This document shows, in pieces, positions 10,955-17,525 of a DNA stretch of 64,000 nt. Origin of the DNA: an uncultured SAR86 cluster bacterium (GTDB taxonomy: Bacteria; Pseudomonadota; Gammaproteobacteria; Magnimaribacterales; AG-339-G14); NCBI GenBank assembly GCA_902596665.1, contig CACJUN010000001.1, positions 62,001 through 126,000 on the forward strand, read 5' to 3'. A program made the translations under genes and the position numbers. Position 1 is the stretch's first letter. Every line of letters starts with the position of its first letter. The notes below the pieces were generated by a model. The model was not told the DNA's origin. It saw nothing but the letters and a program-made list of their open reading frames with translations, and made no database searches.

Positions 10955-11971
10955 ATGGCTAAAACTTCAAAGGAATCTCAAACAAAAGATAAAGAAAAAT
11001 CTCTACAGTCCGCCCTTAGTCAAATTGAGACTCAATTTGGCCCCGGAACAATAATGAGGATGGGAGACAGAGAGGTTCAGAATATACCTTCTATTTCAAC
11101 TGGTTCATTAGGTCTTGATGTTGCTCTCGGAATTGGTGGACTACCAAAAGGAAGAGTGGTTGAAATTTTTGGGCCTGAATCTTCTGGGAAAACAACTTTA
11201 ACCCTTCAAATTATCGCTGAGTGTCAAAAAGCAGGTGGAACCGCAGCATTCATTGATGCAGAGCATGCACTGGACCCATCTTATGCCGAAAAAATTGGAG
11301 TAAATGTTGATGACTTACTTTTATCTCAGCCTGATACAGGAGAGCAAGCCCTTGAAGTAGCAGATATTATGGTTAAGTCAGAAAGTGTTGATGTGCTAGT
11401 AATTGATTCTGTAGCTGCCCTTGTTCCAAGAGCTGAAATTGAAGGGGATATGGGCGATCATCATGTTGGTCTGCAAGCTAGATTAATGTCTCAGGCATTG
11501 AGAAAAATAACTGGAAGCATACAAAAATCAAATACTTTAGTTATTTTTATAAATCAAATCAGAATGAAAATCGGCGTTATGTTTGGTAACCCAGAAACAA
11601 CAACCGGAGGAAATGCGCTGAAGTTTTATTCTTCTGTGAGACTGGATATTCGAAGAATCGGAACTGTTAAGGATGGAGATGAAGTAACCGGAAATGAAAC
11701 ACGAGTAAAAGTAGTTAAAAACAAAGTTTCACCTCCATTTAAGCAAGCTGAATTCCAAATAATTTATAACAAAGGGATCAATAGAACAGGTGAACTTGTA
11801 GATATGGCTGCTGACAAGAAAATAATTGAAAAAGCCGGAGCTTGGTATTCCTACGAAGGAGAAAAAATTGGCCAAGGTAAATCAAATGCCTGTGAATTTT
11901 TAGATGCCAATCAAAAAATATCTCAAGAAATAGAAAAAAAACTATTCGATGCCATTAAGGCTTCAGCTTAG
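10955..11971 (+). CDS. recA: Recombinase RecA
   Basis: ATP-dependent strand-exchange protein and LexA co-protease. 338 residues; Walker A is GPESSGKTT, Walker B is [11 protein letters not shown], and loops L1 and L2 follow ([34 protein letters not shown]). The C-terminal domain is intact although less acidic than in E. coli. Controlled by the LexA box just upstream. recX, the usual next gene, is absent; recA instead overlaps proS tail to tail by 17 bp. Confidence 0.98.
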
Positions 11972-13526: not shown

Positions 13527-15290
13527 ATGAAATATTCTAGTTGCGGTCATGTAAATCTTGCTAACGTTGAAGAGCCAACACGACTTAGGGGTTGGATTGA
13601 TAGCGTAAGAGATCATGGTGGTGTAATTTTTATAGATTTAAGAGATGAAACAGGCATAACCCAGGTAGTTGTAGAGCCTGAAAATAAAGAGTTTTTCTCT
13701 ATAGCTGAAAGATGTAGGTCAGAATTTGTGCTATCAGTGGATGGAAAAATTAGAAGAAGACCTGACGGAACAATTAATAAACAAATACCTACTGGAGAAG
13801 TTGAATTATTAGTTTCTTCATTTGAAATTTTATCAGAATCAGATCCTCTGCCATTTCAGCTTGATGACTATTCTTCAGCAGGAGAGGAGGTAAGATTAAA
13901 ATATAGATTTTTAGATCTTAGACGATCTGAAATGCAAAATAACATTAGAGCAAGATCAAAAGTTTCATCTTCGATAAGAGAGTTTATGGACAAAGAAGGA
14001 TTTCTAGATATTGAAACTCCAATGATGACTAAAGCAACTCCAGAAGGAGCTAGAGACTTTCTTGTTCCAAGTAGAATTTCACGCGGCAGCTTTTACGCTT
14101 TGCCACAGTCACCTCAATTATTTAAGCAACTTTTAATGGCTTCTGGATTTGAGAAGTATTATCAAATTGTACGATGCTTTAGGGACGAAGATACACGGGC
14201 AGATAGACAGCCTGAATTCACTCAGCTCGATATAGAAAAGGCATTTACCGATGAAGATGAGATCATCAATCTATCCGAAAAATTGATTAAGTCCGTTTTT
14301 AAGAAGTTACTTGAAATAAAGCTGCCTAAATTTCCAAAAATGACTTACTCAGAGGCCATAGAAAGGTTTGGGAGCGATAAACCTGATCTAAGAATCAACT
14401 TAGAATTAAAAGAAGTAAAGGAAATCTTCCTAAATTCTGATTTCAAGGTCTTTTCTGGTCCTGCGAACGATCTAAATAGTCGAGTTGTGGCTCTAAAAAT
14501 TTCATCAGAACTTACAAGGAGTAAAATTGATTCTTATACAGAATTTGTTGGAAAGTTTGGAGCAAAAGGCTTGGCATATATCAAGGTAAATGATTTATCA
14601 AAGGGGAACGATGGATTGCAGTCGCCAATTTTAAAATTTTTATCTCAAAAAGAAATTGATTCTTTATTCAAATTTTTAGACGTAAAAGATGGAGATACTA
14701 TTTTCTTTGGAGCTGGGCATAAAAAAATTGTTTCTGATTCGATGGGAGCACTTAGAAACAAAATAGCTGAAGATTTTGATTTAATTGAAGAGTCTTGGAA
14801 ACCGGTTTGGATAACAAATTGGCCTCTATTTGAAGAATCTATTGGAGGAGATCTTTCTCCTGCTCATCATCCCTTTACTAGCTTCAAGGGCACTATAGAA
14901 GACCTCGAGGCCGATCCTGGAGCAGTAGAAGCCAATGCATATGACCTTGTTATAAATGGTACTGAAGTTGGGGGTGGATCGATAAGAATTCATAAATCTT
15001 CTGAGCAGGCAAAAGTTCTAGAAGTGTTGGGTATTTCTGAAAACGAGGCACAAAATAAGTTCGGTTTTTTTCTTGATGCATTGAATTATGGATTTCCTCC
15101 CCATGGCGGTATAGCTTTTGGTTTAGATCGCCTAGTCATGCTCATGATGGGAGCAGATTCGATTAGATCAGTGATTCCCTTTCCTAAAACGCAGTCAGCT
15201 TTATGTTTATTGACGGATGCCCCTGCTAGAGTGGATTCAGAACAGCTTGAAGAGCTAGGTATTTCATTAACTGATCCTGACGGAGATTAA
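13527..15290 (+). CDS. aspS: Aspartyl-tRNA synthetase
   Basis: Class IIb synthetase, bacterial type. 587 residues: N-terminal OB-fold anticodon domain (LRGWIDSVRDHGGVIFIDLRD), motif 2 in FRDEDTRADRQPEFTQLD, the bacterial GAD insertion domain in the middle (about residues 285-410), and motif 3 in GIAFGLDRLVMLM. Whether it charges only tRNA-Asp or also tRNA-Asn cannot be told from this window. Overlap-free, 1 base before yebC. Confidence 0.98.
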   Translation: MKYSSCGHVNLANVEEPTRLRGWIDSVRDHGGVIFIDLRDETGITQVVVEPENKEFFSIAERCRSEFVLSVDGKIRRRPDGTINKQIPTGEVELLVSSFEILSESDPLPFQLDDYSSAGEEVRLKYRFLDLRRSEMQNNIRARSKVSSSIREFMDKEGFLDIETPMMTKATPEGARDFLVPSRISRGSFYALPQSPQLFKQLLMASGFEKYYQIVRCFRDEDTRADRQPEFTQLDIEKAFTDEDEIINLSEKLIKSVFKKLLEIKLPKFPKMTYSEAIERFGSDKPDLRINLELKEVKEIFLNSDFKVFSGPANDLNSRVVALKISSELTRSKIDSYTEFVGKFGAKGLAYIKVNDLSKGNDGLQSPILKFLSQKEIDSLFKFLDVKDGDTIFFGAGHKKIVSDSMGALRNKIAEDFDLIEESWKPVWITNWPLFEESIGGDLSPAHHPFTSFKGTIEDLEADPGAVEANAYDLVINGTEVGGGSIRIHKSSEQAKVLEVLGISENEAQNKFGFFLDALNYGFPPHGGIAFGLDRLVMLMMGADSIRSVIPFPKTQSALCLLTDAPARVDSEQLEELGISLTDPDGD

Positions 15291-15291
15291 G

Positions 15292-16023
15292 ATGGCTGGT
15301 CATTCCAAGTGGGCAAATATTAAGCATAGAAAAGGTCGCCAAGATGAGAAAAAACAAAAAATCTTCTCCAAATTTATTAGAGAACTGACAGTTGCATCAA
15401 GGCTAGGAGGCCCAATTGCAGCAGATAATCCCAGACTTAGGTTAGCTCTAGATAAAGCTTTAGGAGCAAACATGCCTAAGGATACTATTGATAGAGCGAT
15501 TGCAAGGGGAGCCGGAAATTCAGAAGCTGATAATCTGGAAGAAATAAAATATGAAGGCTATGGCCCTAATGGTGTAGCAATATTAATTGATGCTATGACA
15601 GATAACAGGAATAGAACCGTTGCAGAGGTAAGACATGCTTTTACAAAAGCTGGCGGAAGCCTTGGAACGGATGGTTCGGTTGCCTATCAATTTGAATCTA
15701 AGGGAATAATCTCCATTTCAGGTTTATCAGAAGATGACACTCTCGAACTCGTCATTGAATATGATATTGAGGAAATTGAATCGCAAGGCGAGATTGTTAC
15801 GGTAATTTGCAAACCTGATAATTTTTTAAATATAAAAGAAATTTTGGAGCAATCTAATGCTGGGATTGAAAATGCTGAGATTACTATGCTTCCATCTAAT
15901 TCAGTAGAGTTAGGAGATGAAGATTCAGAAAAAGTCATCAGGCTAATTGATACTCTTGAGGACTTGGACGATGTTCAAAATGTTTATACAAATGCTGAAC
16001 TAAGTGAGGCATCAGTAACATAG
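15292..16023 (+). CDS. yebC: YebC/TACO1-family protein
   Basis: Family of translation-assisting or transcription-regulating proteins (TACO1 in mitochondria; PmpR-type regulators in Pseudomonas). 243 residues beginning with the hallmark MAGHSKWANIKHRKGRQDEK, followed by DNPRLRLALDKALGANMPKDT and KYEGYGPNGVA. The stop TAG directly touches the ATG of the next gene. In relatives ruvCAB follows yebC; here a nuclease of another family does. Confidence 0.95.
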   Translation: MAGHSKWANIKHRKGRQDEKKQKIFSKFIRELTVASRLGGPIAADNPRLRLALDKALGANMPKDTIDRAIARGAGNSEADNLEEIKYEGYGPNGVAILIDAMTDNRNRTVAEVRHAFTKAGGSLGTDGSVAYQFESKGIISISGLSEDDTLELVIEYDIEEIESQGEIVTVICKPDNFLNIKEILEQSNAGIENAEITMLPSNSVELGDEDSEKVIRLIDTLEDLDDVQNVYTNAELSEASVT

Positions 16024-16455
16024 ATGACTAATTCAAGAAACAAAGGTGCTTCTTTTGAAAGAGAAATTGCTAATGAATTAACTACAAGACTTGAATTAAA
16101 GCATCAACTTAAGAGAATCCTTGAACAAACTAGGGAAAAACATCTACCTGATTTAATTCTCGGAAGATGGTACCTGGAATGCAAAAGGTATGGTTCTGGC
16201 AATGAGCCAATGGATTCTTGGTGGGAACAAGTAGTATCAGCATCAGGGAAGGATAAAATTCCTGCTCTAATTTATAAATTTGATAGAAGGCCAATAAAGG
16301 TGAGAGTACCTTTGTCAGTTTTAAATGAAAATTTCAGTTTCAACGAAAATGTAACTTGTGATCTATCATTTGAGGACTTTATTACACTGATAAAAACTGA
16401 ATTTTCTGAAGATTTAGAAAATCACAACAATAAACTTAAAGACTTTCAGTATTAG
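16024..16455 (+). CDS. PDDEXK nuclease, Hjc-like; candidate Holliday junction resolvase in the ruvCAB slot
   Basis: 143 residues. The N-terminus NKGASFEREIANEL (E12, E14) followed by PDLILGRWYLECKRY (D43, E52, K54) gives the E...PD...ExK active site of the PD-(D/E)xK fold, arranged as in archaeal Hjc and phage-type resolvases; WWEQVVSAS follows as the usual helix. It lies exactly between yebC and ybgC-tolQ, where other gammaproteobacteria keep ruvC-ruvA-ruvB. Function as a junction resolvase is inferred from fold and position; a repair or phage-derived endonuclease of other specificity is possible. Base composition does not stand out from the neighbours. Confidence 0.72.
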   Translation: MTNSRNKGASFEREIANELTTRLELKHQLKRILEQTREKHLPDLILGRWYLECKRYGSGNEPMDSWWEQVVSASGKDKIPALIYKFDRRPIKVRVPLSVLNENFSFNENVTCDLSFEDFITLIKTEFSEDLENHNNKLKDFQY

Positions 16456-16459
16456 TTAA

Positions 16460-16876
16460 ATGCACAAGTTACCTCTTCGAATATATTATGAAGATACAGA
16501 CGCACAAGGAATTGTTTATCATTCCAAATATCTAAATTTTTTTGAAAGAGCGCGCGCTGAATGTTTGAGGGAAATTGGCTATCGACAAGAAGAATTATTA
16601 AAAGAAGATATTGCGTTTGTCGTAAAGAAACAAGAAATTGAGTACTTTTCTCCAGCAAAGCTTGACGATGAGATTGTAATAAAAACGATTTTATCCTCTT
16701 CAAAAAATGTTTCTTTTACATTCTTCCAATCAGCCAACCTTAAAAATGATGAGAAACAAGTTCTTTGTAAAGGGCAGGTTTACTGTGGCTGTATTTCTCT
16801 AAAAAGGAATGCTCCTGCTAAAATTCCAGAGGAATTAAGAGTTAAAATGAAATTTTTGGTGCAAAACAATGACTGA
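16460..16876 (+). CDS. ybgC: Acyl-CoA thioesterase YbgC (Tol-Pal associated)
   Basis: Hotdog-fold thioesterase, 138 residues, first gene of the Tol-Pal operon. The family motif YYEDTDAQGIVYHSKYLNFFERAR contains the catalytic Asp. In other bacteria it acts on acyl-CoA or acyl-ACP and associates with phospholipid enzymes. It overlaps tolQ by 8 bases. Confidence 0.94.
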   Translation: MHKLPLRIYYEDTDAQGIVYHSKYLNFFERARAECLREIGYRQEELLKEDIAFVVKKQEIEYFSPAKLDDEIVIKTILSSSKNVSFTFFQSANLKNDEKQVLCKGQVYCGCISLKRNAPAKIPEELRVKMKFLVQNND

Positions 16877-17525
16877 TTATTTTTCAATTTATTCCTTAAT
16901 TCTAAATGCAAGCATAGTTGTTCAATTAGTAATAGGAATTCTTCTGCTGGCCTCAATTTGCTCTTGGGTGGTAATAGTAGAAAAATGGATAGTCACAAAT
17001 AATGCTTTGAAAGAATTCTTTCTTTTTGAACAATTTTTTTGGTCAGGAGAATCATTGAAAGATATTTACGATGACCTAAAAGCAAAAGAAGATCTCGTTG
17101 GAATAGAATCAATTTTTTATGAGATTTATGAAGACTCAATAGCTCAAGATAGTCAGGAGCTACAAAAGGATGACTTAACTGCTAGATTTAAACGTGTTTC
17201 TAAAGTTTCTTTGATGCGACAAGAGGATCTTTTAGAATCAAGAATTTCATTCCTATCAACTATTGCCTCGGCAAGCCCTTATATTGGCTTATTTGGAACA
17301 GTTTGGGGAATAATGAATTCATTTAGAGGATTGGCTCAGACATCGCAGGCAACTCTTTCTGTGGTTGCGCCGGGAATATCAGAAGCCTTAATTGCCACAG
17401 CGCTAGGTTTGTTTGCTGCTATTCCAGCTTTAATCGCCTACAACTTTTTTGTGAAAAGAATCAATACTATCTTGAATCGATACGAGAGTTTCATTGAAGA
17501 ATTCCAAAATCTTTTGGCAAGGTAA
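16869..17525 (+). CDS. tolQ: Tol-Pal subunit TolQ
   Basis: Inner-membrane proton-channel subunit, MotA/TolQ/ExbB family. 218 residues with three membrane segments: about 15-38, and a pair in the second half containing SFLSTIASASPYIGLFGTVWGIMNSF and ISEALIATALGLFAAIPALIAYNFF. With TolR it converts the proton gradient into movement of TolA. It touches tolR directly. Confidence 0.96.
   Translation: MTDYFSIYSLILNASIVVQLVIGILLLASICSWVVIVEKWIVTNNALKEFFLFEQFFWSGESLKDIYDDLKAKEDLVGIESIFYEIYEDSIAQDSQELQKDDLTARFKRVSKVSLMRQEDLLESRISFLSTIASASPYIGLFGTVWGIMNSFRGLAQTSQATLSVVAPGISEALIATALGLFAAIPALIAYNFFVKRINTILNRYESFIEEFQNLLAR

Follow-up and report, generated by a model that had tools for sequence, protein, structure and literature searches.

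A phage-related PD-(D/E)XK nuclease in the ruvCAB slot of the SAR86 order Magnimaribacterales

Ocean bacteria of the SAR86 order (Magnimaribacterales) lack ruvC, ruvA and ruvB, whose products normally resolve crossed DNA strands after recombination, and carry in the slot of these three genes a single gene, here called X, that encodes a 143-residue PD-(D/E)XK nuclease with phage relatives and a fold like that of the archaeal Holliday junction resolvases Hjc and Hje. We consider it probable that X has taken over from RuvABC in acting on recombination junctions; this is an inference, made without biochemistry. RuvABC is commonly regarded as near-universal core machinery, and here an entire order is without it. 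In a survey from 2005, RuvAB was missing from only two of 117 RecA-positive genomes (PMC1193525).

Along with the first SAR86 isolate, Ramfelt et al. (2024) described 28 of 280 gammaproteobacterial marker genes as missing in SAR86, several of them belonging to DNA recombination and repair (PMC11582366). As far as the accessible part of that article goes, its main text names neither a ruv gene nor a replacement, and the absence of ruv may already be recorded in its supplement. Full-text literature searches returned no paper that links SAR86 with ruvC or Holliday junctions, and no published report of a replacement of ruvABC by X in SAR86 was found. The ruv genes are misleading completeness markers for SAR86 genomes, and X gives a clue to the function of a family of phage proteins that is labelled merely putative in Pfam.

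A single gene in the place of ruvCAB

The window, a stretch of 64,000 nucleotides, covers G000:C1:62001-126000 of a SAR86 genome of 1.28 Mb in 14 contigs (94% complete). Its gene order in the region of interest is recA, proS (minus strand), fmdB, aspS, yebC, X, ybgC, tolQ, tolR, tolA, tolB and pal (Table 1). X starts on the base right after the stop codon of yebC and ends four bases ahead of ybgC. With flanking gaps of only 0 and 4 bases, ruv remnants hidden in the slot could be ruled out. X occurs as a single copy in this genome. A preliminary description of the same DNA, made from its letters alone, had reported the gene string aspS-yebC-X-ybgC-tolQ, the 143-residue gene with its coordinates and a retained recA; open reading frames and synteny bear all of this out.

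Table 1. Features around the ruvCAB slot, in coordinates of the window.
Feature	Position	Strand	Basis
recA, strand-exchange protein, retained	10955..11971	+	open reading frame
aspS, syntenic, upstream	13527..15290	+	open reading frame and synteny
yebC, flanking the ruvCAB slot upstream	15292..16023	+	open reading frame and synteny
X, 143-residue PD-(D/E)XK nuclease, predicted junction resolvase	16024..16455	+	open reading frame, PDDEXK_15 / PHROG 244 profiles, models
codon of catalytic E12, KGxxFER motif	16057..16059	+	invariant; aligned with E9 of P. furiosus Hjc
codon of catalytic D43 (PD)	16150..16152	+	invariant; aligned with D33 of Hjc
codons of E52-C-K54 (ExK)	16177..16185	+	invariant; aligned with E46-V-K48 of Hjc
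ybgC, flanking the ruvCAB slot downstream	16460..16876	+	open reading frame and synteny
tolQ, first gene of the tol-pal operon	16869..17525	+	open reading frame and synteny

The arrangement is not restricted to the source genome. X was detected in 181 of the 203 SAR86-order genomes, nearly always in single copy. Among the 40 with a completeness of at least 90% it was found in 38; the two exceptions in this latter set (G044 and G091, in 20-30 contigs) remain unresolved. At all 80 loci taken from genome contigs X lies behind yebC, followed by ybgC or tolQ where the contig is long enough, and the chromosomal loci fetched from four families all read yebC-X, then ybgC or tolQ where the contig reaches. 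For comparison, 20 RuvB-positive Gammaproteobacteria were inspected: ruvA stands beside ruvB in 19 of them, yebC or ybgC/tolQ is close by in 18, and one locus that was read whole gave yebC-ruvC-ruvA-ruvB. Gammaproteobacteria with RuvB thus keep ruvC-ruvA-ruvB in this very slot, so that X stands where ruvCAB stood ancestrally. The earlier claim that one gene has replaced the three is thus upheld by an order, yebC-X-ybgC/tolQ, that is common to all host loci checked. A small variation was seen in a family represented by a single genus (f4, L067-L072), where X directly precedes tolQ and no ybgC was found between the two.

Profile searches of the source genome, 94% complete as it is, found none of ruvC, ruvA and ruvB. 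Across the order RuvB (TIGR00635) was matched in 0 of 203 genomes, RuvC (PF02075) in 0 of 202 and RuvA (TIGR00084) above its cut-off in one of 202, and control genomes were matched by each of the three profiles. The sole RuvA comes from G149, a genome with 3% contamination in which neither ruvB nor ruvC was found, and its contig is 3.3 kb long. For these reasons we treat it as probably a contaminant of the bin. The locus as such (L041, G149:C98) is a genuine ruvA and adjoins an apparent RND transporter gene. Hidden ruv genes were also considered: order-wide, the profiles matched nothing else than unrelated proteins, and these weakly, and at a looser threshold the RuvB matches in 40 genomes of the window's own family reached at most 29 bits and fell on long open reading frames of other AAA-type ATPases. 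An intact ruvABC elsewhere, named in the preliminary description as an observation that would refute its reading, was found neither in the source genome nor in about 200 genomes of the order, so that the loss it had claimed from one locus extends to the order.

Within the class, RuvB was detected in 285 of 304 Gammaproteobacteria (an even sample of genomes at least 90% complete), and the 19 negative genomes take in the four SAR86 members of the sample and three genomes of 300-400 kb. Close relatives of X were confined to the SAR86 genomes of this sample. More distant copies occurred in three other genomes, all RuvB-positive; none of the four loci concerned carries host operon genes, and one that was read whole lies among phage-type genes. 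In two further families with genomes of about 1.0-1.1 Mb (f38 and f128), both sampled members of each lack RuvB and gave no match to X; these are other ruv losses without replacement by X.

Family, active site and fold of X

X matches the Pfam family PF24608 (PDDEXK_15) with E = 5.5e-12 and 46.3 bits at a cut-off of 27, and PHROG 244 with E = 3.3e-15; an NCBIfam search returned no model of note. PF24608 is matched by each of the 54 members aligned, from hosts and phages alike, none of which matched Pfam Hjc at E values up to 1, and Pfam RusA and RecU were absent among their profile matches. Judged by its sequence, X is a member of the phage family PDDEXK_15 / PHROG 244 and not of Pfam Hjc, and it agrees with the putative endonucleases of this family in size and active site as well. 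PHROG 244 itself is annotated as RusA-like Holliday junction resolvase. While PDDEXK_15 / PHROG 244 is known from phages and prophages, X is a fixed core chromosomal gene of a bacterial order and lies in the ruvCAB slot. Its presence and place are not a matter of chance, given the matches to both profiles and a syntenic occurrence throughout the order, in single copy in nearly every genome.

The active site was proposed in the preliminary description to consist of E12, D43, E52 and K54. These residues are as claimed, and they are invariant in 31 SAR86 homologues as well as in the set of 54 host and phage homologues, in which K7, G8, R13, R31, Q35, W66, W67 and Q69 do not vary either.

Two AlphaFold2 models of X were obtained (pLDDT 86-88, pTM 0.83-0.84). 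In Foldseek searches the 18 best PDB matches of the first model were all archaeal Hjc or Hje, as were the top 14 of the second, for which RecU appeared only at ranks 26 and 33. The best E value against Hjc/Hje was 8.8e-4, with moderate TM-scores of 0.4-0.6. A sequence search of the PDB with the X profile gave nothing useful and matched no chain, those of Hjc included. A comparison by hhalign of the X profile with the four solved Hjc/Hje sequences (1gef, 2wcw, 1ob8, 2eo0; the P. furiosus Hjc sequence used is identical to 1gef) yielded a probability of 91% and an E value of 9e-7, aligning the KGxxxER motifs, R31 of X with R25 of Hjc, and the D and ExK residues as given in Table 1. The archaeal enzymes are thus the closest solved folds, and KGxxxER, R, D and ExK follow one another in them as in X, but they share only 16-20% identity with X, which is found in bacteria and phages. 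RuvC has an RNase H-like fold, in contrast to the Hjc-like fold of X. The structural comparison with Hjc that had been suggested speaks for the claimed likeness, as does the profile comparison, and what stands of the label Hjc-like is the fold and the succession of E, D and ExK; membership in Pfam Hjc does not, as the family is the phage family PDDEXK_15 instead.

Exonucleases, nickases and restriction enzymes, too, are built on PD-(D/E)XK folds, and X could be imagined as a nuclease of defence or restriction that was domesticated and lies at the ruv site only incidentally. We regard this as very improbable. The fold is indeed frequent in restriction enzymes (PMC1189080), but the PADLOC models gave no match to X even at E 1, the operon has no methyltransferase partner, and X has been kept vertically across the order with a median dN/dS of about 0.06 within genus. 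X is under purifying selection. Its median identity to the window protein across the order is 63%, which places X above its neighbours in the cluster in conservation, recA excepted.

Branch migration and the proposed role of X

With regard to the loss of the RuvAB motor, the preliminary description was right about ruvA and ruvB, which are absent; not every motor has gone, however, since RecG is kept in the source genome at full length (G000:C3:211919-213832, E 1e-196). It is full length in most of the order as well. For RadA (TIGR00416), a search of 116 genomes of the SAR86 order at E 1e-50 gave no match, and ten bacterial controls were matched. RecG matches were of partial length or missing in the members sampled from five genera of family f2 (g6, g7, g11, g12 and g13), in which X is kept. 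The partial ones fall on open reading frames mostly near 1000-1100 residues. Such matches, with E of about 1e-100 on reading frames of mostly about 1000 residues, we read as Mfd-type helicases, based on reading-frame length and partial coverage and without use of an Mfd profile. RecG appears to have been lost in these five genera. If this reading is right, they are without all three known motors, RuvAB, RadA and RecG. That homologous recombination in the SAR86 order, whose members are abundant and free-living, is brought to completion by a resolvase captured from a phage, in some genera without any dedicated branch-migration motor (RuvAB, RadA or RecG), is a suggestion we can make only tentatively.

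YqgF, once proposed as a resolvase, was found in 40 of 40 genomes of the order that are at least 90% complete. One might therefore speculate that YqgF or an unknown enzyme resolves the junctions and that X has another role in repair, for example nicking at mismatches or crosslinks. The PD-(D/E)XK fold is common to mismatch and repair nickases (PMC1189080), which would agree with such a role. However, in most bacteria YqgF occurs alongside RuvC or RecU, and at the time of a survey no resolvase activity had been shown for it (PMC1193525); the replacement of ruvCAB in place by an Hjc-like fold would be left unexplained. We find this explanation improbable.

Non-orthologous replacement of the resolvase, as initially proposed, is in contrast supported by the slot, by the loss of ruvABC across the order and by the Hjc-like fold, with junction cleavage inferred. 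A precedent is RecU, which stands in for RuvC in Firmicutes and Mollicutes and is likewise a lineage-wide swap to a different nuclease (PMC1193525, PMC3403352). There, RuvAB was kept and recU lies elsewhere, whereas in SAR86 RuvAB was lost too and X sits in the ruv slot. In the explanation we favour, the SAR86 ancestor acquired a PD-(D/E)XK endonuclease of phage origin that came to resolve its Holliday junctions, and the entire ruvCAB cluster gave way to this gene at the same site. X would, by inference, dimerise and bind branched DNA, four-way junctions included, that arises from RecA or fork reversal, and may nick two opposing strands near the crossover, with E12, D43, E52 and K54 as predicted metal site. 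No dedicated RuvAB motor would be required, which again is inferred; the junctions might be moved by RecG where this is kept, as in the source genome, and elsewhere by RecA or by migrating spontaneously. Neither biochemical nor genetic data were found for any member of PDDEXK_15.

Phage relatives and origin

A tree of 139 sequences places every SAR86 host copy, together with six phage sequences, in a single clade (100/99), apart from 56 other phage-type sequences. Five of the six phage sequences adjoin the host part of this clade and one (L166) is nested inside it. The alignment comprises only 141 columns and the tree was rooted at its midpoint, so the direction of transfer is not proven. The simplest reading would be that the SAR86 ancestor captured the gene once from a phage and passed it on vertically, and that it returned to a phage at least once, with direction and timing inferred.

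Several phages carry their relatives of X beside genes for DNA polymerase, primase/helicase, RecE-like exonuclease or SSB. The nearest phage copies, 61-64% identical to X, sit among virion genes and not among replication genes. Debranching of DNA ahead of packaging would fit such a virion module. X could accordingly be a broad debranching or flap nuclease of the T7 endonuclease I type that serves replication repair and has Holliday junctions as one substrate of many, and phage resolvases are typically promiscuous (PMC3864405). However, the fold matches are specifically to Hjc and Hje, and X stands in the exact ruvCAB slot and co-occurs with the loss of ruvABC across the order. Broad debranching is therefore possible but rather unlikely in our view. 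It also overlaps with the action of X in place of RuvABC, because such an enzyme would resolve junctions too.

Four marine phage contigs from IMG/VR (L158, L160, L164 and L165) carry copies of X in this range of 61-64% identity and are possible SAR86 phages; in L158 and L165 the gene is flanked by a head-protein gene on one side and further virion genes on the other. One SAR86 bin contains a second copy of X, 40% identical, beside a RecE-like exonuclease gene and a primase-like gene (L074, G135:C4:50525-53902), and this locus is a phage contig or prophage.
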